Below, one piece after another: positions 569 to 22,869 of a stretch of 64,000 nt of DNA (its first letter is position 1; each line of letters opens with the position of its first letter). The position numbers and the translations under genes were made by a program. The DNA is from Taibaiella soli (GTDB lineage Bacteria; Bacteroidota; Bacteroidia; Chitinophagales; Chitinophagaceae). The stretch is from the NCBI RefSeq assembly GCF_003236175.1, contig NZ_QKTW01000030.1, forward strand, positions 1 through 64,000. The letters are read 5' to 3'. The notes beneath the pieces were generated by a model, which had not been told where the DNA came from, made no database searches, and saw nothing but the letters and a program-made list of their open reading frames with translations.

Positions 569-596
569 TGTAACCCAAACCAGATAATCTCCCTGC

Positions 597-4924: not shown

Positions 4925-5857
4925 CTACCACGCCTTACTTCTCAGCTCCTCCGTTCCTTTCGGTTTCACGACAGTGAATACGCGGGAAATGTTGAATCCG
5001 AAGTGGATATTGCCATCACCCCAGGTACCTTGCGTCTGACCGATGAAACTGCGTTCGGTAATGTAACGTGAGTTGGTAAACATCAGTTGGAATACGTGTC
5101 CGCCGGTTTCGATATCGATACCCAGAGACAGCGCATTATTTGAACCCGCAAGCGGATTGGCCACATAGTAATATTCACCAGTAACCGCTATACGATTCGA
5201 TACTTTTATACGACCACCGATACCGCATGCAAACACATCGTTCGGATCTGATTTGTATTGCACCAGATTGTAGTGAATCAATGTTGGCATCAACTGCAAA
5301 GACAACCATCTGTTGAATTTGCGCGCGATGAAGAGTTGGTTGGTGTAATAACAGCGGTTAGAAAAATAATACGTCTGGCCAGAATCCAACACAGGCTTAT
5401 CTCTGTCAGAAATAGACATAGAACCGAGATAGCTCACCGTTATCGGCATTCTATCATCAGTTGTCTGACGCAGTAATTTCACTTTTACAAAACCATCGTA
5501 TTCTTTATCAAACGTAGTACGACCAACGCCCACCATCAGCCAGTCTGTAATACCGTAGTCAAAACCGATGCGCGTATTTGCGTCATCCAACCCGAAGAAG
5601 GTATGGAAGCCACCGCTCACATCACCGAAACGGTGCGAAATACGGAAATCAAGCACACCTGCACCCAGACTTTCAACAGTTTGTCCGTTGATGAGATGCG
5701 TGCTCTTAAAAGTTGCTGTGGTATAATCTTTTTTCTTGGGAGCATCTTTCTGCAACAATTTATCCAGGTCATTATTACTGGTGTCAGCTTGTGCATTTGA
5801 CTGAAACGCAAGACAGCTGATAGCCGCTACCAGCGCCATTTTTAAAAATAGTTTCAT
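4925..5857 (-). CDS. DUF5777-family outer-membrane beta-barrel protein
   Basis: A 310-aa protein with a signal peptide (about 1-22, AFQSNAQA). The conserved DUF5777 signatures follow: ISHRFGDVSGGFHTFFGLDD and NTRIGFDYGITDWLMVGVGR. The strands (such as MLMPTLIHYN-type and HIFQLMFTN-type segments) and the terminal aromatic strand suggest an outer-membrane barrel. It is the last gene of a minus-strand module with YceI (45 bp upstream) and two cytochrome lipoproteins. Members of this family often sit beside YceI and c-type cytochromes in Bacteroidota; their job is not established. Possible role: outer-membrane partner of periplasmic redox proteins (inference). Confidence 0.8.
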   Translation of the reverse strand: MKLFLKMALVAAISCLAFQSNAQADTSNNDLDKLLQKDAPKKKDYTTATFKSTHLINGQTVESLGAGVLDFRISHRFGDVSGGFHTFFGLDDANTRIGFDYGITDWLMVGVGRTTFDKEYDGFVKVKLLRQTTDDRMPITVSYLGSMSISDRDKPVLDSGQTYYFSNRCYYTNQLFIARKFNRWLSLQLMPTLIHYNLVQYKSDPNDVFACGIGGRIKVSNRIAVTGEYYYVANPLAGSNNALSLGIDIETGGHVFQLMFTNSRYITERSFIGQTQGTWGDGNIHFGFNISRVFTVVKPKGTEELRSKAW

Positions 5858-5902
5858 TCTTTCAGTTTATTTCTGGGAAGTATTTCTTTAGTGATTTAAT
5901 AA

Positions 5903-6448
5903 CTAAGCTGGCTTCAGAACCGTATTGATGGTTACTTCAATTTGTTCTGCAATTTTCGAAGCAACTACAGCCGGAATTTTAATACCATAATCAGCAGGTT
6001 TTATGTTGAACTTCGCATCAATAGTAGCAGTACCGCCTTTTACTGTGATAGTACCCGGAACGGTAATATCTTTCGTAACACCGTGCATCGTCAGTTTACC
6101 GGTCACATTCGTTTTATACACCCCATCTTTTGCAAAGTTCACTGCAGACGGATCGGCGAGCTTTCCTCTAAATTCCGCCTTAGGAAACTTATCGCTCTCC
6201 ATGTAGTTTTCGTTGAAGTGCTCCTGCATCAGTTCTTTTTCAAACTTGAAACTCTTTATAGGAACCTGAAAAACCACATCACCAGTTTTGCTGTCTACCG
6301 CTGCTGCTGATTCGTTGTTTACAGCTTCAATATTTTCAATCGGCGTGTGTGAATAAAAACTCACTTTACCGGTGCGTGTCATGTACTTCTGCGCAAATGC
6401 GGGAGCCGTCAGCACCAGCATGCAAGCTGCTATCAATAACTTCTTCAT
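5903..6448 (-). CDS. YceI-family periplasmic lipocalin-like protein
   Basis: A 181-aa protein with a signal peptide (1-19, ending PAFAQ). The YceI fold is recognisable: KVSFYSHTPIENIEAVNNES near the start, FKFEKELMQEHFNENYMESD, KFPKAEFRG, then GKLTMHGVTKDITVPGTI and a C-terminal VTINTVLKPA. YceI proteins form an antiparallel barrel that binds long polyisoprenoid chains, including quinone-type lipids. It lies 45 bp before DUF5777 and 116 bp after the cytochrome lipoprotein, on the same strand. A polyisoprenoid/quinone carrier beside cytochromes would fit an electron-transfer task, but that is inference. Confidence 0.92.
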   Translation of the reverse strand: MKKLLIAACMLVLTAPAFAQKYMTRTGKVSFYSHTPIENIEAVNNESAAAVDSKTGDVVFQVPIKSFKFEKELMQEHFNENYMESDKFPKAEFRGKLADPSAVNFAKDGVYKTNVTGKLTMHGVTKDITVPGTITVKGGTATIDAKFNIKPADYGIKIPAVVASKIAEQIEVTINTVLKPA

Positions 6449-6564
6449 AGTTTTTCTATTTAATGATTTGTAAAGTTGTTCAATATGTAAAGTTGTCGTT
6501 GCGTGTAAAGTTGTTTTTCCAAAGTGATTAACCTTTTAACTTATCAACGTATCAACCTATTAGC

Positions 6565-6936
6565 CTAGTTATTCGGCCATCCGGCATCTACCCAGGTCTG
6601 CAGTTTACTGATCGTGCAAGCATCAAGCTGCGTAGTATTCTGCGGCATTGCGCTATAGCCGCTCTGATGTTTTACAGAACCCATCAGCTGCCCGCTCTGA
6701 GCAATATTGGCAACGCCCGTATAACTATCAAGCGCATAACCACCAGACGCTGTTGCCGCATCATGACAACCGCTTGTAGTACAGTTTGAGCTCATAATTT
6801 TACTGACAGTACCGGAGTAAGTCACATTACTTACATCGCAATTACCAATTGGGTACAACTCTTCGGCATGATCGTAATAGCAACCGGCAAACATCGCTGC
6901 CAGGCAAAGAATACCGAGAATATTTCGTTTTTTCAT
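6565..6936 (-). CDS. Small c-type cytochrome-like lipoprotein with CX4CH motif
   Basis: A 123-aa lipoprotein with signal peptide and lipobox FAGC (C19). A single cytochrome-like domain has a haem motif CTTSGCH (C52, C57, H58), with four instead of two residues between the cysteines. A possible Met ligand is in YSAMPQNTT, followed by the closing helix ISKLQTWVDAGWPNN typical of this cytochrome family. It begins 10 bp after the end of the next gene upstream, so they are co-transcribed. It aligns with the repeats of that neighbour (GYALDSYTGV versus NVALDNYSGV) and so looks like a duplicate. Covalent haem attachment to the CX4CH motif is assumed, not shown. Confidence 0.8.
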   Translation of the reverse strand: MKKRNILGILCLAAMFAGCYYDHAEELYPIGNCDVSNVTYSGTVSKIMSSNCTTSGCHDAATASGGYALDSYTGVANIAQSGQLMGSVKHQSGYSAMPQNTTQLDACTISKLQTWVDAGWPNN

Positions 6937-6946
6937 ACTGTTATGC

Positions 6947-7636
6947 TTAGTTATTGGGTGCTCCTGCAGCTACCCATTTTTTAAGTTGTGTTATTTGACA
7001 ATCCGATAACCCTGCTCCGGTTGGCGGCATGATTAGATAACCCTGTAAATGCATCGTCACATTCAGCAGACGTCCGTCAAGCGCCACCGTTTGTACACCG
7101 CTATAATTATCCAACGCTACATTTCCAGAGTTCGTGTGCGCATTATGACAACCGACGCAATAGGTTGCAATCAGCGGTTTAACGCCCATAGTATAGCTTA
7201 TGTTATTACTGTCGCAAACCAGCGTACAATTCGTTCCATTCTTTGCGCCTTCATTGATCCATCTCGCGATCAGTGCTTTTTGCTCACTACTTAACTGGGG
7301 GTTGGGATACCAGGGCATGCTTCCGTTGGCTATGTCTTTATATATTAGACTCGCTTTCGCATCTCCGGTTACAATACCTTTAGCAATGATCGTTTCATAA
7401 CTGGTAAAATTATAACCATCAGGTTGTGTCTGCGCGTCATGACAGCCGCTACGAGTACAATAGGTAATAAAAACAGGAAGGATATCCCGCTCAAAACAAA
7501 TACCTGTATCTGGAACTACCTGCGTTGTAGTGTCTGTATTTAAACTCCCTGCTGGTTTCGGCAAATCATGTTTACAAGCCATTATACCAGCGCCAGCACA
7601 CAAAACCAGCAAGCACGAAATTAATCTTAGTTTCAT
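6947..7636 (-). CDS. Two-domain c-type cytochrome lipoprotein
   Basis: A 229-aa lipoprotein (lipobox IMAC, C21). It has two cytochrome-like domains. Domain 1 has CTRSGCH (C60, C65, H66; CX4CH) with MPWYPNPQLS as the Met region. Domain 2 has CVGCH (C160, C163, H164; standard CX2CH) with MPPTGAGLSDC. Each domain ends in a helix of the form ..RWINEGA / KKWVAAGAPNN. The mixture of motif types in one chain is unusual. It lies 19 bp after the OB-fold gene and 10 bp before its paralogue. It probably transfers electrons at the outer face of the inner membrane or inner face of the outer membrane. Confidence 0.82.
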   Translation of the reverse strand: MKLRLISCLLVLCAGAGIMACKHDLPKPAGSLNTDTTTQVVPDTGICFERDILPVFITYCTRSGCHDAQTQPDGYNFTSYETIIAKGIVTGDAKASLIYKDIANGSMPWYPNPQLSSEQKALIARWINEGAKNGTNCTLVCDSNNISYTMGVKPLIATYCVGCHNAHTNSGNVALDNYSGVQTVALDGRLLNVTMHLQGYLIMPPTGAGLSDCQITQLKKWVAAGAPNN

Positions 7637-7655
7637 CTGTACGTCTCTTCCCTTG

Positions 7656-8057
7656 CTATTTTACAACACAGTCGGTCAGTTTCACATCTGACACAAATCC
7701 TGAGCAAAAACCTTTCAGTGTAACAGTATTACCCTTTGCCACCGTTTGATTTTTATCGCGCATGGTACACATTACGCCGCTCATTATATCGTCTGAAGCC
7801 AGGATCACAGCAATGCCGCCTTCCTGGTTTGTATCAATTGATGCAACAGTACCGTTCACTTCCAGCACTTTGTTCAGATACTTAGTGTTCGCAGCATTTT
7901 CATCGGTAGAATAATCTTTGAAAAGCGCAACCGCTGTCACCGGAATGCCTTTCGCATCTTCTGCTTTAGGATGCGGTTTGTTCCACATCCGTACACCTAC
8001 AATTATCACTATGACCACAATTCCCAACAGCACCAGCAATATGTTTTTCTTTTTCAT
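7656..8057 (-). CDS. Membrane-anchored OB-fold protein (tRNA_anti-like family)
   Basis: A 133-aa protein with an N-terminal transmembrane anchor (about 5-23, NILLVLLGIVVIVIIVGV) and a periplasmic domain of the OB-fold tRNA_anti-like family. The order is a strand/helix region around ANTKYLNKVLEVNGTVASID, then GIAVILAS, then GNTVTLKGFCSGFVSDVKLT and a terminal DCVVK. C-rich edges (C116, C130 region) are seen. It is the first gene of the cytochrome/YceI/DUF5777 module. Despite the family name there is no reason to expect tRNA binding; such periplasmic OB folds usually bind small ligands or proteins. Confidence 0.75.
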   Translation of the reverse strand: MKKKNILLVLLGIVVIVIIVGVRMWNKPHPKAEDAKGIPVTAVALFKDYSTDENAANTKYLNKVLEVNGTVASIDTNQEGGIAVILASDDIMSGVMCTMRDKNQTVAKGNTVTLKGFCSGFVSDVKLTDCVVK

Positions 8058-10196: not shown

Positions 10197-10221
10197 AAAA
10201 AACCCGGGCTTTTACACCCGG
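10197..10221 (-). terminator. Terminator of the porin-Rieske-imelysin-dihaem operon
   Basis: On the minus strand CCGGGT pairs with GCCCGG (one G-T pair) across GTAAAA and is followed by a run of T. It lies downstream of the dihaem gene stop at 10273. Confidence 0.7.
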
Positions 10222-10272
10222 ATCCATGTAAAGTCCGCTAAGATAGTTCAAATTCCTTTAAACTGGCGGCCT

Positions 10273-11655
10273 TTAGAGCGACTTTAGGAAAGTAATAACA
10301 GCGTCACGGTCTGTTTTACTGAGTTGTATAAAGTTATTTTTTGCTTTATCTGCTTCACCCCCATGCCATAATATCGCCTCTTCAATGGTCCGCGCTCGTC
10401 CGTCATGTAAATAATAAGGAGTGCCGTTCGTTTTTTCAAAAAGACCAATCCCCCACAAAGGCATGGTACGCCATTCTTTTCCGGTTGCCAGGAAGTCGGT
10501 GTAATTATCAGCCAGATCATCGCCCATATCATGCAGTAAGAGATCCGTGTATGGATGAATACGCTGATTGGACGCAGAAGGTAATGTCATGTCCACGCCG
10601 GTTTGAATGGTTGGTTTGTGACAACCAGAACAATTGAGCTGAGCAAACAATTGCTGTCCTCTTTTCACTGTTGGATCTAATACATCCCGACGCGCCGGCA
10701 CTGCCAATGTTTTAATATAGAAGATGACCGCATTCAAAGTGCTGTCCGGCAAATCCGGAGCAGCGTTCAAATCTTTTGCATTCATCTGCGATTGTCCATA
10801 ACAACTTTTCTGTGGTTGAATAGAACTAGTGACACCCATATCCTGCTGATAAGCGGTGGCTACCTGTACCGCAATCGTCGATGTATTTGCTTTCAGGCCA
10901 AAACGACCTAATTCTGTTTGTTTCGTCTGAGGATTGTACACGTAGTTTGCTTTGCCCGAAATTCCATCACCGTCCGCGTCATTCTCATCAATAAATGCGA
11001 GAATCGTACCTTCCTGAATCGTCGCCAGCAGCCCCAGACCAAATACCGGCGGCGCCAGACGCGGCGAAAGATTACAAGCACCGGTTACTGGCGTATACAA
11101 ACTCTGCATGGTGTAGGTTGGCTTGCGCAAATGCGTTATTGTTCCGTCCGGATAGGTAACTGCTACATCGGTGTAAGCAATACTGATCCTGGCCTCAGGC
11201 GTTACACCCTGCAGTGCCTGATCTTGTATTTGGCCGCCGTAACCGGGCATTGGCGCAGGTCCGCCGTGTTCATTGGCCCCCAGAGTACTGATGCGGAACA
11301 ATAAAGAAGAGCGAGCATCGCCCGCTGTGGGTGTGCCTTTGCCATCATTATGATGACAAGAGATACAAGACACATTGTTGAAAATCGGCCCCAGCCCGCC
11401 AAAAATAGGAGCCGGAGACGATACAAATGTTTGTTCAAAAGCTACATCACCTGCTTTCTGTACATGTGCATCACGCCCCGAAAGTCCATCTACGGCATGC
11501 GTAAACGCTTTGGAGGTTGCATCGAAGACAGTTGCCAGACCGCCACCGCTCAAACGCTCATCATAACCATCGTCATTAAACGTTTCCGCTTTGCGGCACA
11601 TACTGAAACCAGTGATGATGGCAACAATGCAAAGCAGTACAGAAAGTTTTTTCAC
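10273..11655 (-). CDS. Di-haem oxidoreductase of the DHOR family (c-type cytochrome)
   Basis: A 460-aa exported protein. The family opening GGGLATVFDATSKAF (38-52) is followed by haem motif 1 CISCHHNDGKG (C97, C100, H101) and motif 2 CSGCHKP (C342, C345, H346). C-terminal segments MPLWGIGLFE and YYLHDGRARTIEEAILWHGG are typical of this thiol-oxidoreductase/di-haem peroxidase-like family. The signal has a cysteine at 20 (FSMC), but the lipobox is poor (Met before Cys). It is the last gene of a four-gene operon, 30 bp after imelysin. DHOR-imelysin pairs recur in many bacteria and are linked to iron; the redox substrate here is unknown. Confidence 0.88.
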   Translation of the reverse strand: MKKLSVLLCIVAIITGFSMCRKAETFNDDGYDERLSGGGLATVFDATSKAFTHAVDGLSGRDAHVQKAGDVAFEQTFVSSPAPIFGGLGPIFNNVSCISCHHNDGKGTPTAGDARSSLLFRISTLGANEHGGPAPMPGYGGQIQDQALQGVTPEARISIAYTDVAVTYPDGTITHLRKPTYTMQSLYTPVTGACNLSPRLAPPVFGLGLLATIQEGTILAFIDENDADGDGISGKANYVYNPQTKQTELGRFGLKANTSTIAVQVATAYQQDMGVTSSIQPQKSCYGQSQMNAKDLNAAPDLPDSTLNAVIFYIKTLAVPARRDVLDPTVKRGQQLFAQLNCSGCHKPTIQTGVDMTLPSASNQRIHPYTDLLLHDMGDDLADNYTDFLATGKEWRTMPLWGIGLFEKTNGTPYYLHDGRARTIEEAILWHGGEADKAKNNFIQLSKTDRDAVITFLKSL

Positions 11656-11685
11656 TTCAGTTTTATTTTATCTTTTCCCGAAAAA

Positions 11686-12789
11686 TTAATCGGTAATATT
11701 CGTTTTGATAAACGGCTCCAGATCGTTTTCCAGTGTATTTTTCAGATCGTCGAGCGCAGCCATCGTGGCCTGAATCTGCGTACGCTGAGCAGCAATCGCC
11801 TGACCATAAGGCAATGTGATGTTATCGAAAGAGCTTACCGCTACAGCAATTTTCGTTTGAATATTATTGTCCAGAGATTTGTTTTTAGCCGCTACCAGAT
11901 CCTTCAAGCCTAAACCGCTTTTGCCGTTATAAGTGCCCAGGTACACGTTCTGCAAACCAATCAGGTTGTTTTTAAAATCGGCAATAGAGGTACCCGCATA
12001 TGGAGATTCTACCAGAAACGCTGCCAGTGCAGGTTCCGTCAGATAAGCATCGTACGGATCTTTCATTTTGCTGGTTCCTACTTCTTCACAGATATCCATC
12101 ATACCACCAATGATTGCCAGATACACGTCTTGCTTCTTCGTATATTTTGTGCTACCTGCACCTGCTGTAATGACTTGCTGCGCGTAGTTTTCAGGCGCCG
12201 CACTCCAGCTTGAATACAGTGAAGTACACGTGTTTTTCAGATCTTCTGCCAATGCCATCATGTACTCTTTTTCTTTCGCAGTGAGATCTGCCGCTGTTTT
12301 GTTTCCATCTTTACCGAAGATCACATACTCAATCGGGTGATAACCGCGCAGCGACAAAGTATAATTCTGTACGTCAGCAACTGTAAACGCGCTTGCATTT
12401 GCCATCAACGAATCCATCTGATTATAGTCTGTAGGCCATGTATCCATATTCGGATCGTAGTCATTGTCTTCTACCGGACCAAACAAAAAGCCTTCACACT
12501 GCTCCCAGGTTCCGCGCATTTTTTTCCAGGCATCACGCGCTGCACTCAGATTTGCGTCAGTTGCACTATTGTTCAGCGTCTGCAATTTTGCATACAGATC
12601 ATCAGCCGAAGTTTTCAGATCACTGTAACCAGCCACGGCAACGTTATTGGTAAAATCAGCCAGCACCTTAGTTTTCAGTGTATTGAAATCTGTAGTGGCA
12701 CTGCCGTTGTTGTCGTCTTTTTTATTACAAGCTGCTAGGCTCAGCAAACCGGCAGCAGCGAGAAGGATAACTTTGTTTTTCATGTTCAT
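11686..12789 (-). CDS. Imelysin-family lipoprotein (M75-like, iron-regulated type)
   Basis: A 367-aa lipoprotein with lipobox LAAC (C21). The imelysin signature GYHPIEYVIFG contains the conserved H151-x2-E154, and the helical-bundle repeats (AWKKMRGTWEQCEGFLFGPV; PYAGTSIADFKNNL) are present. Imelysins are envelope proteins of iron uptake; the once-supposed peptidase activity is doubtful, and iron binding through the GxHxxE motif is the current view. It lies 4 bp after the Rieske gene and 30 bp before DHOR, so it is one transcript. The start could also be the Met at residue 3. Confidence 0.92.
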   Translation of the reverse strand: MNMKNKVILLAAAGLLSLAACNKKDDNNGSATTDFNTLKTKVLADFTNNVAVAGYSDLKTSADDLYAKLQTLNNSATDANLSAARDAWKKMRGTWEQCEGFLFGPVEDNDYDPNMDTWPTDYNQMDSLMANASAFTVADVQNYTLSLRGYHPIEYVIFGKDGNKTAADLTAKEKEYMMALAEDLKNTCTSLYSSWSAAPENYAQQVITAGAGSTKYTKKQDVYLAIIGGMMDICEEVGTSKMKDPYDAYLTEPALAAFLVESPYAGTSIADFKNNLIGLQNVYLGTYNGKSGLGLKDLVAAKNKSLDNNIQTKIAVAVSSFDNITLPYGQAIAAQRTQIQATMAALDDLKNTLENDLEPFIKTNITD

Positions 12790-12793
12790 TTAT

Positions 12794-13225
12794 TTATTCG
12801 GATATAATTATGGTGTTCTGATTAATGATTGCTTTATACTGAAGGAGTGGCGTCTCCGCCGGACCTTTCACTACCTTCCCGTCTTTATCGTACTGGCTGC
12901 CGTGCATGCTACATGTAAAACCGCTTCCCGTTATAGAAAGCTGATTGTCCATGTGCGTGCATTTCATCAGCATTGCGGCAAACGTTCCATCCTCTTTCTT
13001 GTGCACTGCCAGATCATAATCCCAGCCTTTTACCCGCACAATCTGCAAAGTGGTTTCATCAAATAGCGAAAGCGGAATCTCCAGTTGGTTCTGATCATTG
13101 ACTTTGGTCTTGTAATATTTATCATTACCGGCCTTAGCTGTATTGATCATTCCAGGCAACATCAATCCTGCTGCGCCTAAGAGGCACAGTTTACAAGACG
13201 CTTTGACAAATTCTCTTCTTTCCAT
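12794..13225 (-). CDS. Rieske [2Fe-2S] protein with twin-arginine-type leader
   Basis: A 143-aa protein. The leader MERREFVKASCKLCLLGAAG has paired arginines and a hydrophobic stretch, suiting TAT export of a folded iron-sulphur protein. The Rieske ligands are C89 and H91 (CTHMDN) and C105 and H108 (CSMHGSQYD). The closing KGPAETPLLQYKA is the usual proline loop region. It is a small stand-alone domain, not a cytochrome bc1 subunit and not fused to an oxygenase. Its ATG overlaps the porin stop as TAATG, so translation is coupled. It is probably a periplasmic electron carrier for the dihaem protein (inference). Confidence 0.92.
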   Translation of the reverse strand: MERREFVKASCKLCLLGAAGLMLPGMINTAKAGNDKYYKTKVNDQNQLEIPLSLFDETTLQIVRVKGWDYDLAVHKKEDGTFAAMLMKCTHMDNQLSITGSGFTCSMHGSQYDKDGKVVKGPAETPLLQYKAIINQNTIIISE

Positions 13226-14463
13226 TAGAACGAATAACCGATACCGATGTTGAGGAATGAATTATTCTGTTTGTATGGCAATTGATTTGGCGGCGGATTA
13301 ATATTCAACATTGGATTTTGTTCGCCGGTATGCATCAAACGAACGTCTGCTTTAATCACAACGTTTGGCAAAGGCAGATAACTAAACCCTGCAATGAGAT
13401 GTGATTGTTTTAAAGTACCATCGTAAATACCTTCCGGCGCAGATGGAATAGATGCATTCAGGTCCATAAGCTCATAACGAGCAAAAGCTACCAGCTGAGC
13501 CGTCTTCTTACGGAAATGCAGGATGTCATAACCAAGCTCTGCATAAGCGCCATAGACACCCGTCGCAATATTCTGCGCATAAGCGGCATTGATTTTACCT
13601 GCGTCGGGATACCCGATATAAGCACCTAATACTTTCGCGGAAATTCCTTTGTGGTTGTATTGTACATCCGCTTCACCGAGATAAACTGGTGTTCCCATTG
13701 GGCCACCATCAAGGGTTAGACTGTCGGCAGCACGTTTACCCAAACCAACAGTGCCCCCCATATAACCAGAAAGCTGAAATTTGAAATCACGTACGTTGTA
13801 TTGTACTGCTGCAGTGATGGCCAGATTGTTTGCCATCGCCATGCTACCTTCCGCGCGACCGTCACGAATACCAGTACCGTGTGTGAAATCTGCAGAATTC
13901 AATCCATTCATCAATGCCACGCTATAATTGAGCGGCATATTACGAGAACGGCCATAGAAGCCAACGCCAAGCTCGCGCCAGGTAGCCGGAATAACCCAGG
14001 TTTCTACCATTGGACGCTCTACGCCGTTGAAGTTTACGGGAAGGTGGTTTTCATTCAAAATACCGATACGTGGAATGAACAAACCGGCAATGATGTATTG
14101 ATGCGGATTGAGGTTGAACTTAAGAAAGGCCTGCTCCATGGCAATCTCGCCTTTTGTTTCGTTACCTACTACCAGTGCGTTTTCTACCTCGAGTTCGGAG
14201 AAGAATGCGATCTTTCTGCTGAACTGATGACCGACGAATAACACCGCGCGTTCCAAAGTAGCAATTGAAGTCTGCGCATTGGAATTGTGTTGGTAATAAG
14301 CGCTGCCGTAGCCGGAAAGAATTGTTTTTTTATCGCCTACACCACCGGCGTGAAGAGAGTCTTCATTTGTCAAAATCTGTTGCTGGGCCTGCGTTCTGAA
14401 CTGTGCGAATGCTGCGTTGCAAAGAAATGAAAGTGTAAAAAAGAGTAGAGATATCTTTTTCAT
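13225..14463 (-). CDS. Outer-membrane porin (phosphate-selective-porin-like barrel)
   Basis: A 412-aa protein with a signal peptide (about 1-20, CNAAFAQ). The remainder is a large beta barrel with recurrent aromatic strands: KIAFFSELEVENALV, EQAFLKFNLNPHQYIIAGLF, PRIGILNENHLP and a terminal SFLNIGIGYSF. The FELEVENA/GLFIPRIGILNE pattern is that of porins placed near the OprO/OprP group. It is the first gene of the operon with Rieske, imelysin and DHOR, suggesting it admits or binds the substrate handled by those redox proteins, perhaps iron chelates. The substrate cannot be read from sequence. Confidence 0.8.
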   Translation of the reverse strand: MKKISLLFFTLSFLCNAAFAQFRTQAQQQILTNEDSLHAGGVGDKKTILSGYGSAYYQHNSNAQTSIATLERAVLFVGHQFSRKIAFFSELEVENALVVGNETKGEIAMEQAFLKFNLNPHQYIIAGLFIPRIGILNENHLPVNFNGVERPMVETWVIPATWRELGVGFYGRSRNMPLNYSVALMNGLNSADFTHGTGIRDGRAEGSMAMANNLAITAAVQYNVRDFKFQLSGYMGGTVGLGKRAADSLTLDGGPMGTPVYLGEADVQYNHKGISAKVLGAYIGYPDAGKINAAYAQNIATGVYGAYAELGYDILHFRKKTAQLVAFARYELMDLNASIPSAPEGIYDGTLKQSHLIAGFSYLPLPNVVIKADVRLMHTGEQNPMLNINPPPNQLPYKQNNSFLNIGIGYSF

Positions 14464-14563
14464 AATGCTGAACCGGCAGCAAAGGAACTGTTATAAAAGC
14501 AGTTGCATTTTTTGAAAAAGAAAAATCTATTTTCAGAATCGGGAATAATTTTTTCCGGAATGC

Positions 14564-14630
14564 AAAAACAGGCTGCCAGCGAATGCCGGACAACCTGTTT
14601 TTAGTTGACAGTTGACAATGGACAATTACC
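14564..14630. terminator. Hairpin with A/T arms between porin and hemL, plus repeat
   Basis: AAAAACAGG (14564-14572) and CCTGTTTTT (14594-14602) form a stem with A and T arms, able to terminate in either direction. A GTTGACAGTTGACAATGGAC copy of the dispersed family follows at 14603-14630. Confidence 0.55.
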
Positions 14631-14696: not shown

Positions 14697-15977
14697 CTAT
14701 TTCAAAAAGAAACGACGCGCTGCGGCGATCGTTCTGTCGAGATCTCCGTAAGTAAGTGCATTGCTCAGGAACCATGTTTCGTATGCGGAAGGTGGAAGGT
14801 AAATGCCTTCAGCCAGCATTGCATGGAAAAATTCGTTGAACAAAGTATTGTTTGCTGATGCCGCATCTGTAAAATTATTCACAGGATGACCACTGAAATG
14901 CACACTGATCATAGATCCGAAGCGATTGATCACATAAGGAATACCGGATTGTTGCAGCACTTCGTCGAGTCCTTTATGGAGATACGCTGTTTTTTCGTCG
15001 AGCTCTTTGTAGATAGAAGGGTTTTCCTTCAGTTCTTTCAGCAAAGTATATCCCGCGATCATTGCGATTGGGTTACCGCTCAAAGTACCCGCCTGGTAAA
15101 CGTTTCCAAGCGGCGCAATATGCTGCATAATTTCTTTTTTACCACCAAAAGCGCCCACTGGCATACCGCCGCCGATTACTTTACCATAAGTGACGAGATC
15201 TGCGTTGATCTTTAAACGCTCCTGCGCACCACCTGCTGCCAAACGGAAACCAGTCATTACTTCATCGAAAATGAGCAGTATACCTTCTGCATCACAAACA
15301 GCACGGAGTCCTTCCAGGAAACCTTCCTGTGGGATAATGCAACCCATATTACCTGCTACCGGCTCAATGATGATCGCTGCAATCTCACCTTTGTGTTCCG
15401 CCGCGAGTCGCATCACTGCATCAAGATCATTATATGGTGCGGTGAGCGTATCTTCTGAGACATTGCCCGGCACACCCGGCACTGTTTGGATATTAAATGT
15501 TGCTACACCGCTGCCCGCTTTTACGAGAAATGCATCGGCATGACCATGATAACAACCTTCGAATTTGATGAATTTGTTTCTGCCGGTATAACCGCGAGCC
15601 AGACGCAATGCGCTCATACAAGCTTCGGTTCCGCTGCTCACCATACGTACGAGGTCTACATTCGGCGCCATGCTTCTAATCAGCTCAGCCATTTCGATCT
15701 CTAATTCTGTTGGTGCACCAAACGAAGTGGAGAATGCCGCTTTTTCCTGAATGGCTTTTACCACCGGATCATAAGCGTGACCAAGGATCATTGGTCCCCA
15801 TGAGTTGATATAATCGATATATTGGTTACCATCGGCATCGTAGAGATAAGCGCCTTTGGCTTTATCCATAAATACCGGCGTTCCGCCAACGCTCTTAAAT
15901 GCACGCACCGGCGAGTTTACCCCTCCCGGAATGGATTCCTGTGCACGGCTGAAAAGTGAAATGCTTTTGTTGTACAT
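14697..15977 (-). CDS. hemL: Glutamate-1-semialdehyde 2,1-aminomutase
   Basis: A 426-aa PLP enzyme converting glutamate-1-semialdehyde to 5-aminolevulinate, the second step of the C5 haem pathway. It shows [18 protein letters not shown] at the N-terminus, the PLP-binding SSGTEA and the Schiff-base lysine in [17 protein letters not shown]. The start at 15977 ([10 protein letters not shown]) is preferred. A longer frame to 16013 would add 12 residues encoded by a dispersed repeat (15987-16015). It lies on the same strand as hemB and hemF, with a four-helix-bundle gene between it and hemB. Confidence 0.96.
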
Positions 15978-15986
15978 ATTCTGTGT

Positions 15987-16465
15987 GGTCAAACGTGAAA
16001 CGTCAAAGGTCAATGCCCGACTTGAGTGCGCAACATCTTCGACAGCATACCAAACACCTTGTTCATTAATTCGCCTAAAACCTCACAATTTTTAGCGTCA
16101 AAATATCCAAGTTCACTGGCGGTATCGAGAGCCGCATCAATCTCTATTAACGATCCACGTGATATTTCAAAAAATCTTTTTCTTTCTATTTCTGATTTTC
16201 GCGAACAGCCCTCAGCTATATTTAATACCACAGAAAGACTAGCCCGCCTTATTTGTTGTATCATATTGAAACGCTCCTCTGCCGGAAACTTATTGCTTAA
16301 TTTATAACATTCTACAGTTAATGCCCGGGCCGATTTGTAGACCTCCAAATTCTGATGATTAAGTTGTAAAAACATCTTTCGTCGATTGAAAACCAGCAAT
16401 CTAATGCATTTCTTTTGACGTTTCACACGTCTTCTGCAATTGACGTTTGACGTTTCACCTTTGAC

Positions 16466-16466
<1 letters not shown>
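15987..16466. mobile_element. Cassette bounded by 28-bp imperfect inverted repeats, carrying a four-helix-bundle gene
   Basis: The left flank (15987-16015) reads GGTCAAACGTGAAACGTCAA and onward. The right flank (16439-16466), read on the other strand, starts GGTCAAAGGTGAAACGTCAA; only a few positions differ over about 28 bp. Between them lies one gene. The left repeat supplies that gene's stop codon, and the right repeat abuts the hemB stop. Whether this is a mobile unit or a chance placement among dispersed repeats is unresolved; no transposase is present. Confidence 0.45.
16010..16375 (-). CDS. Four-helix-bundle protein (23S rRNA intervening-sequence / S23 type)
   Basis: About 121 aa from the ATG at 16375 ([19 protein letters not shown]). 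The family pattern is clear: [80 protein letters not shown], then a C-terminal helix. These small bundles are encoded in 23S rRNA intervening sequences and as scattered genes in Bacteroidota, and resemble the Avd accessory protein of diversity-generating retroelements. It interrupts the hemB-hemL spacing and is bracketed by inverted copies of a dispersed repeat. No retroelement or rRNA is near. Function unknown. Confidence 0.88.
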
Positions 16467-17609
<1,143 letters not shown>

Positions 17610-17663
17610 CTGAACACTCACAATTGACAACTCACCACTTCAACTCCGCTCAGGGTGACAAAG

Positions 17664-18614
17664 TCAGACATCAGCGATCCAGTTCTTTGGCACCAAACAC
17701 GCCTGCAACAGCTTATCCTCTTCACTTCCAGCTACCGGTTGATAGTTGTATTCAAAACGAACAGTCGGCGGAAGACTCATCAGGATGCTTTCGATACGGC
17801 CATTGGTTTTGAGGCCAAAGATGGTACCGCGATCGTGTACGAGATTGAACTCAACATAGCGTCCACGACGGATTTCCTGCCAGTGTTTATGCTGTTCACT
17901 GTATTCCGTTTGTTTTCTTTTTTCCACGATTGGAACGTATGCTTCGATAAATGCATCTCCGCAAGTCTTTGCGAAATTCATCCAGAAGTCTACATCCTTT
18001 ACTGCGTCAGGCTTTTGATGATCATAAAAAATGCCACCAATACCACGACGCTCCATATTGCGATGCCAGTTCACGAAATAATTGTCGCATTCTTCCTTGA
18101 ATGTTGGATAGAAAGAAGCATCAAACTGATCGCAGGCATTTTTGTATGTCTGATGAAAATGCTTTGCATCTTCTTCAAACAAATAATATGGAGTAAGATC
18201 AGTGCCGCCACCAAACCAGCGATCGATCACTTCATCTTTTTCATTGTATAATTCAAACATGCGGTAATTGCAATGCACCGTCGGCACAAATGGATTTACC
18301 GGATGAATCACCAGACTCAAACCACAGGCAAACCACTTGGCGCCGTCTATTTTCAATTGCTTGCGCATGACGTCCGTCACATCACCGAACACAACAGACG
18401 TATTCACACCACCTTTCTCAAAAACATTACCATTGCTGATGACACGTGTTTTACCACCGCCACCTTCAGCACGTTCCCATTTATCTTCAATAAAAGTTGC
18501 TTTACCATCGGATGCTTCCAATGCAGCACAGATACGGTTTTGCAGATCGTGTATAAACTCGATCCATGATGCTTTTATTTCCTGATCTGTTTTTGTGTTC
18601 ACTAGATTTTCCAT
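17664..18614 (-). CDS. hemF: Oxygen-dependent coproporphyrinogen III oxidase
   Basis: A 316-aa cytosolic enzyme converting coproporphyrinogen III to protoporphyrinogen IX with O2. Family motifs include KWERAEGGGGKTRVI, WFACGLSLVIHPVNPFVPTV (quoted to that point), HCNYRMFE, WFGGGTDLTPYY, RRGIGGIFYD, and the C-terminal GRYVEFNLVHDRGTIFGL and ESILMSLPP. Histidines and the GGGTDLTP loop are intact. Choice of HemF over HemN indicates aerobic haem synthesis. It lies on the same strand as hemE but is separated by 358 bp of repeats. Confidence 0.96.
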   Translation of the reverse strand: MENLVNTKTDQEIKASWIEFIHDLQNRICAALEASDGKATFIEDKWERAEGGGGKTRVISNGNVFEKGGVNTSVVFGDVTDVMRKQLKIDGAKWFACGLSLVIHPVNPFVPTVHCNYRMFELYNEKDEVIDRWFGGGTDLTPYYLFEEDAKHFHQTYKNACDQFDASFYPTFKEECDNYFVNWHRNMERRGIGGIFYDHQKPDAVKDVDFWMNFAKTCGDAFIEAYVPIVEKRKQTEYSEQHKHWQEIRRGRYVEFNLVHDRGTIFGLKTNGRIESILMSLPPTVRFEYNYQPVAGSEEDKLLQACLVPKNWIADV

Positions 18615-18972
18615 GTATGTAATCTTTCAATCAAAGCTACTATAGCCTGTTTCGGGAATTTATGACTTTGGTCAGTTCAGTTCAAATTAACAGTTGACAA
18701 TGGACAATTGGCAGTGCCTCATGTTATCGCTGGTTTCCCGCAAAGATTCATAAGGAGCAAAGAAGCAAAGCTCGGATACAACCCATTACCTACCTTTTCA
18801 CGTGTCAGCCTGAGCGGAGTCGAAGCCCATATTTCGCGGGATGTCTCCTTCGTCGACATGACCACCGAGTACTTCCATTTTCGTGCAGTTTGCTTCGTTC
18901 CTCGCAATGACGCGTTGGGGACACTCACTATTCACCACTGACAACTCACAAATTGACCATTCACCATTGCCC
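18615..18972. repeat. Repeat-filled gap between hemF and hemE
   Basis: No gene is seen. The gap holds an AACAGTTGACAATGGACAATT copy at about 18687-18715 and a CAGCCTGAGCGGAGTCGAAG element near 18807-18826. It also contains a diverged REP-like piece ending CTCGCAATGACGCG (about 18900-18913) and a run ATTCACCACTGACAACTCAC/ATTGACCATTCACCATTG at 18925-18970. Confidence 0.65.
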
Positions 18973-20001
18973 TTAAAGGCTAAACCCCTTCACCGCATCT
19001 ACAAACGCTTTCGCGTGATCTACCGGAACATTTGGTGTAATGCCATGACCCAGGTTCGCGATATAACGCTGCGGACCGAAAGCCATAATCATTTCTTTTA
19101 CTGAACGTTGAATTTCCGGAATCGGCGCCAGCAATCTTGCAGGATCGAAATTACCTTGTAGCGTAATGCTGTTGTTCGTCATCTGGCGAGCGAGCGCAGG
19201 CTCAATACACCAGTCAATACCGATACCAGCACATCCTGTACTTGTCAAATCAGGCAATGCATACCAGCTTCCTTTCGGAAAAAGAATAACTGGAGCACCT
19301 TTTACACCATCCACAATCTGCTGCAGATAAGGCAATGCATAAGTTCTGAAATCAGCAGGACTCAGCATGCCGCTCCAGCTATCAAATACTTGCACGAGAT
19401 CCGCACCAGCTTTCACTTGTGCGTTCAAGTACTGAATCGTAACGTCTGTAATTTTTTGCAGTAACGAGTGCGCGAGTTCTGGCTGTGTGAAACAGAATTG
19501 TTTCGCCTTGTCCCATGATTTGCTGCCCTTGCCTTCTACCATGTAGCAAAGAATTGTCCACGGCGCACCGGCAAAGCCGATAAGCGGCACGCGACCATTC
19601 AACTCTTGCTTAGTCAGCGTCAATGCTTCCATCACATAATGCAGACGATCTGCCACATCAGTTGTGATCAGCGCATCTACATCGGCTTGCGTAGCTACCA
19701 CTTTGGGCAACAAAGGACCTTTGTTCTCTTCAAGCAATACTTCCAGACCCATAGCCTGCGGTATTACCAGAATGTCCGAAAATATAATTGCTGCATCCAC
19801 ACCGATCTGATCAATTGGCTGTAAAGTGATTTCACAAGCGAGTTCAGGAGTTTCTACACGAGTAAAAAAATCGTACTTGGCACGGAGTTTCATGTAGTCA
19901 GGCAAGTATCTTCCTGCCTGGCGCATCATCCACACCGGTGGTCTTTCTACGGTTTCTCCTCTAAGGGCTCTTAACAAAAGATCGTTCTTCAAGTTATGCA
20001 T
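18973..20001 (-). CDS. hemE: Uroporphyrinogen decarboxylase
   Basis: A 342-aa cytosolic enzyme decarboxylating the four acetates of uroporphyrinogen III. It shows the invariant [15 protein letters not shown] region, the substrate-binding aspartate in [42 protein letters not shown] and the C-terminal [13 protein letters not shown]. Normal length. Its ATG overlaps the hemD stop by 8 bp, so it is the fourth gene of the hemA-C-D-E run. Confidence 0.97.
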
Positions 20002-20701
20002 GTAGCGTATTTATTATCAAATCTGTAATCGCTTCGCCGCTTGGCGTAACGCTTGTCTGCAGCGGGTTTTGTGGCACCCGCTTTTTTATACTGTCGGCAG
20101 TTGTTTTCCCTATGGCATAGCAAATTGTTTCCTCCGGAATAATGTTTACCGAAAAGAAACTATCTACTGCGCTGGGACTAAAAAAAACAACGCCGTTATA
20201 CGTCTGATGAATATTTTGTGGCGTGGCCACAGTGTGATAGGCAAGGATTTCCGTTACGGATTTACCATGTTGTTGCAATACATCCGGAATGATATTTCTC
20301 CGCAGATTGCCACAAAAGAAAACAACCTTATCCACACTTACATTTGCAATGATCAATTGCGCCAGCGCTGTACCATCATCAGCTGTGGCCATAATTGATT
20401 GTTCGCCGAAAGCTGCTACTACCGAATCTTTGGTGGCGGTGCTCAGGCAATATATCTTCCAGTCGGGCTTAGTGCCGTTCAAAAAACGGGCAACTGATTT
20501 TACTGCATTGCTGCTGGTAAAAACAACGGTAGCCGACTGCGTTAAAATTGATTGAATTTGTGCTTGTAAAATTTCAGCTTCGATAAAAGAAATATCGATA
20601 AACGGAACTGCATCCACACGAATGCCATGAGCCAGTGCTTTATCTATCAGCGGTTGCGCCAACAGACGAGTACTTAATATGCATAGCTCAGCATCAGGCA
20701 T
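19994..20701 (-). CDS. hemD: Uroporphyrinogen-III synthase
   Basis: A 235-aa protein; sequence conservation in this family is low, so the assignment leans on position plus a few motifs. These are [18 protein letters not shown] in the first domain, [29 protein letters not shown] in the hinge, [16 protein letters not shown] and the closing [13 protein letters not shown]. It cyclises hydroxymethylbilane with inversion of ring D. It overlaps hemC by 8 bp upstream and hemE by 8 bp downstream. Confidence 0.9.
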
Positions 20702-21623
20702 TTTTTATTTCCTCCAGAATTTCTTTACCACCGTTTTCAATGATTTCGCGCGCCAGTTCTGCTCCTGCTGTAAAGGCTTTTTCTGGTGCAATCACTTTTT
20801 CAATGCTTACTTTCTTGCTACCATCGAGGTTAAGCAAGTTGCCTGAAAAATGAATCGCTCCATCTTTTATCGTTGCCAATGCAGAAATAGGTGTAGTACA
20901 TCCGCCCATCAAACCACGAAGAAAGTCGCGCTCGATGTGTGTGCACAAAGCAGTGTCAAAGTCATGAAACAACTGACAGCCAGCATAACTGTATGAATCT
21001 TCCTCGCGGCAAACCACCATGATAGCGCCTTGTGCCGGAGCAGGTAACATCCAGTCGAGATCAACGGAATTTTCAGGACGCAGATTAATGCGTTCCAATC
21101 CTGCTGCTGCGAAAATTGCGCCCTGCCAGTTGCTTTCGGCAACTTTGCGCAGACGTGTATTTACATTGCCACGAAGATTATCAATAGAATGTTTTGGATA
21201 ACGGTTGAGCCATTGCGCTCTGCGACGAGTGCTGCTCGTCGCAATGATCATTTCGGAATTAACATTCGCCAATTCACCGTTGACCATTGACCATTCACCA
21301 TTCACCACCAGAATATCTTTCCAGGAAGCACGCGGCAATACTGCTGCGTTTCTGATTCCTTTAGCTAACTGAGTCGGTACGTCTTTCATCGAGTGAACGG
21401 CAATATCAATATCACCTTTCAGCAATGCAATATCAAGCGCTTTGGTAAAAATGCCCTGCACACCGATTTCGTAAAGTGGCGTCTGCAGATCTATATCACC
21501 TTCACTTTTGATATACACCAACTCTGCGGCATAACCATGCTTTGCAAGCAAATTCTGTACTTGCGTAGCCTGCCATACAGCCAGCTGGCTTTCTCTCGTA
21601 CCAATCTTAATTGTCTTATTCAT
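20694..21623 (-). CDS. hemC: Hydroxymethylbilane synthase with repeat-derived surface segment
   Basis: A 309-aa cytosolic enzyme joining four porphobilinogens. It shows KIGTRESQLAVWQA at 6-19, the catalytic aspartate D81 in HSMKDVPT, TSSTRRRAQW, LRGNVNTRL, and the cofactor-carrying cysteine C242 in MGGCTTPIS. Odd feature: residues about 106-123 (VVNGEWSMVNGELANVN) are encoded by DNA of the dispersed ATTCACCATTGACC family (21255-21308), seen elsewhere only between genes. They sit in the variable loop before TSS, where related enzymes carry unrelated sequence about five residues shorter. The frame is intact, so the enzyme is probably active. Confidence 0.95.
   Translation of the reverse strand: MNKTIKIGTRESQLAVWQATQVQNLLAKHGYAAELVYIKSEGDIDLQTPLYEIGVQGIFTKALDIALLKGDIDIAVHSMKDVPTQLAKGIRNAAVLPRASWKDILVVNGEWSMVNGELANVNSEMIIATSSTRRRAQWLNRYPKHSIDNLRGNVNTRLRKVAESNWQGAIFAAAGLERINLRPENSVDLDWMLPAPAQGAIMVVCREEDSYSYAGCQLFHDFDTALCTHIERDFLRGLMGGCTTPISALATIKDGAIHFSGNLLNLDGSKKVSIEKVIAPEKAFTAGAELAREIIENGGKEILEEIKNA
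21255..21308. repeat. Dispersed repeat copy inside the hemC reading frame
   Basis: Plus-strand sequence AATTCACCGTTGACCATTGA followed by CCATTCACCATTCACCACC matches the intergenic copies at about 18940-18970 and 31750-31782. Its length keeps the hemC frame. It encodes a near-repeated VNGE/VNGE peptide. Confidence 0.7.
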
Positions 21624-22845
21624 TACCGGCTCTCGTACCTATAAATTCATTAATGGCGCCAATATACTGGCAACCGATATTGTTTTCGCTGCGCACTTTT
21701 ACTGCAAGCGTATTGATCACTTTCTGAATTTCGTCTTTGCAGTCACAATACTTTGGCGACATAAGTATCACCTGATGCTGACACAGTTCGTTGAGTTTGT
21801 GCTTCACGGCTTTCAGCACCGGCGCATATTTGCGGGTTTTACACCAGTCTACAAATTCCTGAATATGCTCTGTGATGATGTCATTCGCCTTCGGCACCTC
21901 CGCTTCACGTTTCTGAAGCGTCTCATCTTTAATGCGCGACAGTTCATCCACATTTACCAGCTTAATATTGCTGAGCTCTTGTGCGTCGGAGGAAACATTA
22001 TAAGGAATGGAGAGGTCAATGATCAGTTTATCACCATTGCCTTCCAGATGTTCTCTGAAAATAACCGGCTCATTGGCGTTGGTAGCCACAAGCACAATAT
22101 CCGCCTTTTTGAGGCTCGCAGACAAATCTTCCAGCGGAGCATGCTTTAGTTTCAGCTCTTGTGCCAGCGTCTCTGCCTTTTCCTCAGTGCGGTTGATGAG
22201 TGTAATATGCTTGGTATGCAGATAGTCAACCAGGTTTTTGCAGGTATTGCGACCAATTTTGCCGGTACCAAGCAAAAGAATTTCTTTATCCTTTACCTGC
22301 TGCACATGTTCCTTAATATACTGAACAGCCGCAAAAGCCACGGAAACAGTTCCGCCGCTCAGTTGCGTTTGGGTTTTGATTGCTTTTGATGATTGCAGTA
22401 CTGAATTCAGCAGACGCTCCATAAACGCACCAATAAAACCACGTGCTTTGGCAAACTTTACTGCAGTTTTGATCTGCCCTACAATTTCATAATCACCCAA
22501 AATCTGCGAATCAAGACCGGCGCTAACCTGAAAAAGATGCCAGATTGCATCCATTCCGTTTTTAGCATAAGCCAGTTGTTCAAATACCTCTATCTCCCCT
22601 TCTGTCTCCGTACAGATAAGCTCCATCATCTGATCTGCTGTGTCCGCAAATCCATAAATTTCAGTACGATTACAGGTGGAAAGAATGAAGAACTCGTTTA
22701 GTCCAAAGCTCGGAGCAACGGAAAGAATACTTTCATATTGCTCATTATTTATTGCGAATTGTCCTCTGATTGAGGCGTCTGTCTTCTTATAGTTAATGCC
22801 GACAACCCAAAAGCCCGATATATTTTTTTTATCAATCGTGTTCAT
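21616..22845 (-). CDS. hemA: Glutamyl-tRNA reductase
   Basis: A 409-aa NADPH enzyme making glutamate-1-semialdehyde from Glu-tRNA, the committed step of the C5 pathway. It shows the N-terminal WVVGINYKKTDASIRGQFA, the catalytic cysteine C58 in LSTCNRTEIYG, GLDSQILGDYEIVGQIK, the NADPH loop LLGTGKIGRNT and IDLSIPYNVSSD. The start at 22845 (MNTIDKKN) is chosen over a 44-residue extension because a -7 box lies at 22870-22877 and the extension has no family similarity. First gene of hemA-C-D-E, diverging from hemH; its stop overlaps hemC by 8 bp. Confidence 0.96.
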   Translation of the reverse strand: MNTIDKKNISGFWVVGINYKKTDASIRGQFAINNEQYESILSVAPSFGLNEFFILSTCNRTEIYGFADTADQMMELICTETEGEIEVFEQLAYAKNGMDAIWHLFQVSAGLDSQILGDYEIVGQIKTAVKFAKARGFIGAFMERLLNSVLQSSKAIKTQTQLSGGTVSVAFAAVQYIKEHVQQVKDKEILLLGTGKIGRNTCKNLVDYLHTKHITLINRTEEKAETLAQELKLKHAPLEDLSASLKKADIVLVATNANEPVIFREHLEGNGDKLIIDLSIPYNVSSDAQELSNIKLVNVDELSRIKDETLQKREAEVPKANDIITEHIQEFVDWCKTRKYAPVLKAVKHKLNELCQHQVILMSPKYCDCKDEIQKVINTLAVKVRSENNIGCQYIGAINEFIGTRAGNE

Positions 22846-22869
22846 CCCTTGCTGTAGCATTTCGAGATG

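Follow-up and report, generated by a model that had tools for sequence, protein, structure and literature searches.

Four genes that lie in tandem in the window (the whole stretch of DNA analysed here, 64,000 nucleotides from Taibaiella soli) encode, in this order, a porin, a stand-alone Rieske protein, an imelysin-like lipoprotein and a di-haem c-type oxidoreductase (DHOR). They are a genuine unit whose grouping goes beyond chance, since the same genes occur in the same order in at least 19 of the 295 genomes compared across the class, from 13 families. In our best reading, to which we give a probability of about 0.56, the operon is an outer-membrane metal-acquisition module with a Rieske-porin core, working reductively, and a sister set of genes serves for manganese and/or iron. 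Metal uptake as the role is well supported; the direction of electron flow, the protein that touches the metal and the path of the ion are what we infer. Imelysin-DHOR pairs have long been tied to iron without an agreed mechanism, and in Bacteroidia they are one elaboration of a Rieske-porin pair.

The four-gene operon and its proteins

The reading frames, gaps and domains are as the first-pass annotation had described them for four tightly spaced genes (Table 1): the porin and Rieske frames have one base in common at a TAATG junction, and gaps of 4 and 30 bp separate the Rieske gene from the imelysin gene and the latter from the DHOR gene. In the window, the operon is flanked by hemL and a desaturase gene. 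Haem-biosynthesis neighbours were rejected as members of the system, as hemL had no match in the 33 loci compared, which include one more from the window's own genome. The hairpin past the DHOR stop codon is among the 9 sites of the terminator-type consensus in the region (mean of 5.1 in shuffles); the inverted repeat that separates hemL from the porin gene, absent among the sites of that scan, is likely the hemL terminator.

Table 1. Operon genes and nearby sequence elements, with positions in the window
Feature	Position	Strand	Basis
Porin, first gene	13225-14463	(-)	16-stranded outer-membrane barrel (AlphaFold2 model)
Stand-alone Rieske [2Fe-2S] protein	12794-13225	(-)	PF00355, E 2.7e-13
Imelysin-like Peptidase_M75 lipoprotein	11686-12789	(-)	PF09375, E 6.8e-57
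DHOR, di-haem c-type oxidoreductase	10273-11655	(-)	PF06537, E 3.7e-102; GTG start
Terminator-like hairpin past the DHOR stop	10200-10225	(-)	10 pairs, T-rich tail; consensus match
Inverted repeat AAACAGG...CCTGTTTTT between hemL and porin	14564-14602	(-)	by eye
ATTCCCGATTCTGAAAAT, degenerate copy of the TTTCC-N6-CGTAAA element	14529-14546	(-)	by eye

The porin of the window has no Pfam match when searched alone. The strands of its AlphaFold2 model (mean pLDDT 77) were counted by inspection, and Foldseek matched the model to OmpC/OmpF/OprP-type porins. Porin_O_P (PF07396) was matched at E<=1 by 3 of 23 members of the porin family (best 6.5e-6), the window protein not among them, and a search of the PDB with the porin profile returned no solved relative at E<=10. 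The sequence holds no CxxCH haem motif. A ladder of glutamates (E90, E92 and E94) is invariant and is predicted from the model to face the lumen.

The Rieske protein has a twin-arginine start, ERREF, and the ligands CTH...CSMH. Among 103 Rieske rows from the four-gene and best named loci, duplicates counted, 75 contain RRx[FLIVM] and 94 contain R[RK]x[FLIVM]; among the 33 sister-set rows the numbers are 15 and 32. Together with a TatC encoded in the window's genome, the motif bears out the TAT export proposed earlier; against it, the curated TAT_signal_seq model scores the window protein at 15.0, slightly below its cut-off of 16.7. A lipobox-like Cys is found in 22 of 23 aligned homologues, and Thr takes its place in the window copy. 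The fold is common to the Rieske subunits of bc1 and b6f complexes, and PetC3 and b6f-type Rieske proteins are among the nearest solved structures; however, the operon contains no cytochrome b/c1 gene and the window Rieske is twin-arginine exported and lacks the second (disulphide) Cys pair.

The imelysin carries the motif GYHPIE (GxHxxE), its nearest solved relative being 3n8u, and the DHOR carries the haem motifs CISCH and CSGCH. The DHOR is a predicted lipoprotein, with C20 invariant in 21 aligned sequences. Surface-export signals past the lipobox, examined in the gene set, were not decisive.

Distribution of the gene set and of its Rieske-porin core

The search for the set in other genomes, suggested by the first-pass annotation, found it conserved: besides the class-wide occurrences given above, the four-gene order is present in 64 of the best 80 named loci (out of 431 relatives), with median gaps of 9, 7 and 22 bp. 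The named loci include ones from Parafilimonas terrae, Chitinophaga arvensicola, Chitinophaga rupis, Limnovirga soli and Deminuibacter soli. A sister set, DHOR-Rieske-porin without imelysin, is carried by at least 40 of the 295 genomes (42 loci) and forms one clade for DHOR, Rieske and porin alike in quick FastTree runs without further tests. The Rieske-porin pair itself is carried by at least 64 of the 295 genomes, and at no fewer than eight class-wide loci neither imelysin nor DHOR lies beside it; in a quick FastTree, the porin clade takes in 8 of 10 such pairs, not all. No DHOR match was found in four Rieske-porin genomes (G295, G205, G357 and G134).

Among the matches listed class-wide, loci without a Rieske gene comprise porin-imelysin-DHOR (6), imelysin-DHOR-imelysin (9), imelysin-DHOR (5) and DHOR-imelysin (1), as well as four of DHOR-porin without Rieske beside them; this last figure, like the singleton counts, needs care because of the selection of rows (most short or weak porin fragments dropped, imelysin rows mainly above 1e-36, Rieske rows only to about 1e-22, and for DHOR each ORF taken once where it had matched in two fragments). 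The four DHOR-porin and six porin-imelysin-DHOR loci suggest that Rieske is dispensable in some lineages, which counts against the preferred reading, as do the Rieske-porin genomes without a DHOR match. The first-pass annotation had counted against itself any otherwise identical loci from which Rieske or porin is missing; this objection holds only in part. Imelysin-DHOR-type loci without Rieske do exist, but the seven whose DHOR was included in a quick FastTree all lie outside the four-gene clade, and the Rieske-porin pair persists at the eight loci that lack imelysin and DHOR beside it.

Promoter elements and metalloregulators

The iron link was examined with the Riemerella Fur box, ATTTAGAATNATTCTAAAT, promoter fragments of that organism having bound Fur in EMSA (PMC5609570). 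A match was defined as at least 16 of 19 positions of this consensus, and shuffles, made as first-order Markov resamplings rather than exact dinucleotide shuffles, reached the threshold in 0 to 0.4% across groups. Promoter loci were chosen, not random: all 19 class-wide four-gene loci and nine further ones, less two at contig ends (L081 and L082) in the Fur test; eight class-wide and two further Rieske-porin pairs; all six porin-imelysin-DHOR loci; and 33 loci of the sister set, of which 24 come from the 42 class-wide ones and nine are other near relatives. Of the 14 four-gene promoters outside the window's family, 12 carry a Fur-box match (shuffles, 0.07%). Boxes were also found at four of eight Rieske-porin pairs and two of six porin-imelysin-DHOR loci, and at none of the 33 sister promoters. 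Control promoters of the same loci gave 8 matches in 168 (five genes divergent from the porin and three response-regulator genes). The classical Fur box, TGATAATNATTATCA, was enriched in no promoter group.

In the window's family, none of 12 four-gene promoters reached 16 of 19, and the Fur box sought upstream of the porin gene in the window is absent, the best site matching at 12 of 19. Canonical Fur is nearly absent from this family; the window's own genome gave no Fur-family match and its Fur-like boxes are at chance level. The link to iron is backed by the orthologous operons outside the family and finds no support in the window's own promoter or genome. The promoter elements of the relatives suggest that the four-gene kit is made under iron shortage; if so, the window's family would be one that has kept the operon although canonical Fur has almost disappeared from it. 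Inspection by eye also showed TTTCC-N6-CGTAAA, partly in tandem, upstream of several four-gene operons of the family (see Table 1 for a copy in the window). As a family regulon element it was rejected (0-7 hits per genome per strand in four genomes, against 2-10 for the reversed control), the window's own genome having 5 hits against 2 for the reversed control.

The sister set bears another signature. A divergent DtxR/MntR-type regulator is encoded at 21 of its 33 loci and the operator TTAG-N6-CTAA is present at 25 of the 33 promoters (89 of 6600 random windows, 1.3%); one or the other is found at 30 of 33 loci. As a box for the four-gene set the operator was rejected (1 of 28 promoters, L035 only), and it is absent from the window's own promoter. 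Members of an NRAMP cluster flank five of the 33 sister loci, four of them directly behind the regulator (the member at L121 is PF01566); a ZnuA-ABC protein lies beside one locus (L051), and a ferritin and a CDF transporter adjoin another. No recurrent inner-membrane importer was seen in the flanks examined of the four-gene loci. The two main elaborations of the Rieske-porin pair, with their distinct metalloregulator signatures, lead to testable predictions on metal, regulator and dispensable partner.

Proposed mechanism and rival readings

As we picture it, the core would be the porin and the exported Rieske protein, with imelysin and a long DHOR added for iron. Periplasmic carriers would deliver electrons to Rieske and to the di-haem DHOR. 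Fe(III), bound by imelysin or at the barrel, would be reduced, and the resulting Fe(II) would cross the Glu-lined porin and reach an importer of the inner membrane whose gene lies elsewhere; the sister set would do likewise for manganese and/or iron. If this is true, Bacteroidota have a redox-coupled way of bringing metals through the outer membrane without TonB. Another iron locus of Bacteroidota with an imelysin lipoprotein belongs to the Fur regulon of R. anatipestifer (RAYM_09779-09794, TonB receptor-HTTM/gamma-carboxylase-imelysin; PMC5609570). A similar locus (L052) lies elsewhere in the window's genome, and differs from the operon in having a TonB receptor and HTTM; neither a porin of the operon's family nor a Rieske or DHOR gene was found in it.

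An outer-membrane barrel joined to a redox protein recalls Cyc2, MtoAB and PioAB (PMC10654088), and porin and Rieske could form a split analogue of Cyc2, with [2Fe-2S] for haem, that sends electrons outward to Fe(III) or Mn(III/IV) outside the cell. DHOR would then be a terminal reductase that can be dispensed with, and the divalent ion would enter by the same Glu-lined barrel. We regard such a conduit as improbable, though the foremost of the alternatives. Its redox partner would be exchangeable, as on a proteobacterial plasmid where a homologous porin lies beside an FMN-binding protein, ApbE and a CCP_MauG protein; the likeness to the known conduits is one of organisation. In the operon the [2Fe-2S] cluster sits on a separate small Rieske protein, the 16-strand barrel is devoid of a haem motif, and the PDB search with the porin profile gave no sequence link to them.

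Slightly less probable is an oxidative route of the EfeB kind, in which DHOR, as a peroxidase or ferroxidase, oxidises Fe(II), imelysin binds and passes on Fe(III), and Rieske is the electron acceptor or donor. DHOR is annotated as a putative peroxidase, and imelysin-DUF1111 pairs are already known and have been likened to EfeUOB; in the loci of P. aeruginosa (PA4370-4373) and V. cholerae a GxHxxE imelysin adjoins DUF1111(DHOR), as in the window, and they have been assigned Fur control and a function in iron uptake (PMC3143127). Compared with these systems, the operon has an extra porin and an exported Rieske, a single imelysin and no EfeU, and the sister set lacks imelysin and has DtxR-type control. 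Inspection of the operon and of the flanks of the loci showed no EfeU/FTR1 permease. Oxidation would be counterproductive in the sister set, which bears the DtxR/MntR-type signature and, at some loci, lies near NRAMP, a divalent-ion importer.

A defence against oxidants in metal shortage, in which Rieske would supply DHOR with electrons for the removal of peroxide at the outer membrane, the porin doing no more than admit the substrate, seems unlikely to us: the DHOR profile matches cytochrome c551 peroxidase weakly (E 2.9e-4) and the Ideonella analogue includes a CCP_MauG protein, but Rieske-porin loci occur in the four genomes without a DHOR match, and a Fur box is matched at three of these loci (L083, L084 and L085). 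Quite improbable, finally, is a DHOR that, by analogy with MbnH-MbnP, acts as a MauG/MbnH-like modifying enzyme, oxidising a residue of imelysin or porin into a metal site and being recycled by Rieske, for although DHOR is paired with imelysin in the operon, imelysin as a substrate is missing from the sister set.

With regard to the preferred reading, reductive metal acquisition, we found no biochemical evidence of metal reduction by these proteins and, in the literature searched, which omits bioRxiv preprints and most subscription journals, no description of a porin-Rieske-imelysin-DHOR operon. A candidate counterpart that speaks for this reading comes from Bizionia argentinensis, whose mliR mutant contains less Fe, Mn and Zn. 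The ten most down-regulated transcripts of this mutant include those of a Rieske and a cytochrome c gene with consecutive numbers, which the authors regard as respiratory, and of an imelysin-like gene (PMC9478572).

The operon and its proteins

On the minus strand from 14463 to 10273, genes for a porin, a Rieske protein, an imelysin (Peptidase_M75, PF09375) and a di-haem c-type oxidoreductase (DHOR; PF06537/DUF1111) lie head to tail; the porin and Rieske genes have one base in common (TAATG), followed by gaps of 4 bp (Rieske-imelysin) and 30 bp (imelysin-DHOR). Reading frames, spacing and domain matches bear out the grouping and gene identities of the first-pass annotation. A terminator-like hairpin, a consensus match of a kind frequent in this region, follows the DHOR stop. 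Between hemL and the porin gene, an inverted repeat accompanied by a run of T can be read from the sequence. With these flanking elements, the operon has the appearance of a single self-contained unit.

Features of the window in and around the operon
Feature	Position	Strand	Length	Remarks
Porin	14463 (start)	minus	412 aa	first gene of operon
Rieske protein		minus	143 aa	second gene
Imelysin		minus	367 aa	third gene
DHOR	10273 (end)	minus	460 aa	last gene
Terminator-like hairpin	10225-10200
Degenerate upstream element	14546-14529			copy of an element found upstream of several operons of the family
TTAG-N6-CTAA	56714			single site in the window
Second possible redox cluster	4925-8057	minus		last member PF12869 (tRNA_anti-like OB protein); other members presumably a barrel protein, a YceI-like protein and two lipoprotein-like proteins with CxxCH/CxxxCH motifs
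Haem-biosynthesis genes	14697-24037			beside the operon; taken to be hemL, B, F, E, D, C, A and ferrochelatase
Small ORF	16010-16426			inside the haem cluster; presumably of four-helix-bundle type
ORF	73-573			motif RRNCDTSETYLRYIGNLT repeated, hence probably a short tandem DNA repeat array

The assignments of the DHOR, M75 and Rieske families are firm (Pfam). The porin itself gave no Pfam match; its predicted structure is a 16-stranded barrel resembling OmpC/OmpF/OprP-type porins, and Porin_O_P was matched by three of 23 members of its family. Across 23 porin sequences, drawn from the four-gene set and from a sister set lacking imelysin (DHOR-Rieske-porin), E90 and E92 are invariant and E94 is kept in 22. 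In strand 3 the three residues alternate with a hydrophobic face and are therefore predicted, on the basis of sequence and secondary structure rather than measured geometry, to point into the lumen.

The Rieske protein begins with a twin-arginine motif (ERREF), has the ligands CTH and CSMH and is without the additional Cys pair found in the Rieske subunits of bc1/b6f complexes. Its nearest solved relatives include PetC3 and b6f-type proteins. A lipoprotein-like Cys follows a hydrophobic stretch in 22 of 23 aligned homologues; the window protein has Thr in its place, then AKA-GN. Both haem motifs of DHOR are kept in all 21 sequences, covering both sub-classes. The GxHxxE motif is present in the imelysin, whose nearest solved relative is the circularly permuted B. 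ovatus protein 3n8u (PMC3143127).

Distribution of the four-gene and sister sets

A Rieske match was found in 43 of 99 near relatives, the window's genome included. In the 33 loci fetched for neighbourhood analysis, one of them from the window's own genome, the four-gene arrangement recurred ten times (once truncated at a contig end), porin and Rieske occurred by themselves in two, and ten showed the sister arrangement, a shorter DHOR followed by Rieske and porin; hemL had no match in these loci. Among 431 relatives in the named collection, the best 80 loci include 64 in which all four genes keep their order (imelysin being called twice in one of them); the median gaps are 9, 7 and 22 bp. Seven of the remaining 16 lie near a contig end.

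Combining porin, Rieske, imelysin and DHOR searches over the same 295 Bacteroidia genomes, we found, among the matches listed, 19 four-gene loci in 19 genomes of 13 families, 42 DHOR-Rieske-porin loci in 40 genomes, eight porin-Rieske pairs, nine imelysin-DHOR-imelysin, five imelysin-DHOR and one DHOR-imelysin loci, as well as six porin-imelysin-DHOR and four DHOR-porin loci with no Rieske among the matches listed. Porin and Rieske are neighbours in 64 of the 295 genomes (again among the matches listed), and 84 have any DHOR. In quick trees, all 32 sister members fall into one clade for Rieske (support 0.99), DHOR (1.0) and porin (1.0). All 24 four-gene DHORs form one clade (0.95), the four-gene Rieske proteins one with those of all ten pairs (0.99), and the four-gene porins one with those of eight of the ten pairs (1.0). 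This clade structure makes the two sets look like two old systems rather than repeated accidents. Four porin-Rieske genomes (G295, G205, G357 and G134) have no DHOR match anywhere, which argues that porin and Rieske form the core of the module; to judge from the DHOR-porin and porin-imelysin-DHOR loci, the Rieske gene, too, can be lost or missing. A Parabacteroides distasonis plasmid record (L249) carries porin-imelysin-DHOR-porin without Rieske.

Promoter elements and regulators

In Riemerella anatipestifer the Fur box reads ATTTAGAATTATTCTAAAT; purified Fur of this species is reported to bind promoter fragments with such boxes (PMC5609570). We applied this consensus to other Bacteroidia promoters from -200 to +70 bp around the porin start, with the middle base free and at least 16 of 19 matches. 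Outside the window's family, Chitinophagaceae, 12 of the 14 four-gene loci have such a box (first-order shuffles, 0.07%); it also occurs in four of eight porin-Rieske pairs and two of six porin-imelysin-DHOR loci, and in none of 33 DHOR-Rieske-porin loci and none of 12 four-gene promoters of the window's family. As a control, eight of 168 flanking genes reach this threshold. Five of them are oriented divergently to the porin, whose upstream DNA they can share; the other three are response-regulator genes of a single cluster beside such loci (one member Pfam-confirmed). The classical Fur box was not enriched in any group of promoters.

The link to iron first proposed for the operon holds in outline for its relatives and fails the Fur test in the window's genome: the box expected upstream of 14463 reaches at best 12 of 19, in a genome without a Fur to read it. 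PF01475 had no match in this genome (98.7% complete), the same search being positive in 13 of 14 control genomes, and Fur-box-like sites are at chance level (54 per strand vs 60 in the reversed control). This absence may account for the boxless promoter. Of the 99 relatives, 60 belong to the family; one of these has a strong Fur match (E below 1e-20), 43 have a weak match only and 16 none, whereas the match is strong in 36 of 39 genomes from other families of the order. The window's genome has one DtxR-type regulator, but the single TTAG-N6-CTAA of the window lies at 56714, away from the operon promoter.

In 21 of 33 sister loci, a divergent DtxR-type regulator (one member carries PF01325, PF02742 and FeoA domains) begins no more than 400 bp from DHOR; one of the other 12 carries the regulator at another place in the locus, and for one there is no upstream sequence. 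The motif TTAG-N6-CTAA was found at -150 to +60 bp around the start of DHOR in 25 of 33 loci, compared with 89 of 6600 random windows drawn from these loci, and 30 of 33 have the divergent regulator or this site.

A TACC-N8-GGTA palindrome, which we take to resemble a NarL-like 7-2-7 site, lies upstream of the porin in 13 of 44 porin-first promoters (loci L067, L068, L072, L074, L076, L079, L106, L108, L109, L110, L112, L115 and L116), none of 33 sister promoters and 60 of 8300 random windows. A LuxR-type response regulator stands beside some of these loci, with its own Fur-like box in three.

Metal acquisition as the proposed function

With two related modules each marked by a different metal-sensing repressor, metal acquisition is the best explanation for both; the metal of the sister set would be Mn and/or Fe. 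NRAMP cluster members flank five of 33 sister loci, directly behind the regulator in four and, in L121, immediately ahead of DHOR (PF01566, E 9.5e-136); in L076, a four-gene locus, a regulator and NRAMP lie farther along in the downstream direction. The sister locus L051 holds a ZnuA-ABC protein. On a Hymenobacter qilianensis plasmid the sister set (DHOR annotated in two pieces) lies between ferritin and a cation diffusion facilitator, and on a Fibrella sp. plasmid near a Dps-type protein, HmuY and a TonB receptor. The module would work in the reductive direction. Two points favour this: divalent-ion importers can lie beside the sister set, and the Glu-lined barrel would suit a divalent cation.

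A Bizionia argentinensis mliR mutant has lower Fe, Mn and Zn contents, with down-regulation of BZARG_RS03000 (cytochrome c), BZARG_RS03005 (Rieske) and an imelysin-like gene, the first two taken as respiratory by the authors (PMC9478572); these are candidate equivalents of the present genes. Compared with imelysin-DHOR systems, the operon is of the same kind plus a Rieske-porin core, of which we found no description in the literature searched.

An Ideonella dechloratans plasmid (L248) encodes a TonB receptor, a two-component pair, a CCP_MauG protein, a porin of the same protein family as the operon's (profile E 1.6e-42), an FMN-binding protein and FAD:protein FMN transferase, hinting that the redox arm is exchangeable, its partner apparently swapped here. 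The Candidatus Manganitrophus plasmid L246, a record named for a manganese oxidiser, also encodes a member of this porin family (profile E 2.7e-46), with no Rieske or DHOR annotated beside it. A second imelysin of the window's genome lies in a DUF4856-imelysin-HTTM locus on another contig (L052, contig C22, 6738-12938), which resembles the Fur-regulated imelysin locus of R. anatipestifer; the protein after HTTM is presumably TonB-receptor-like.
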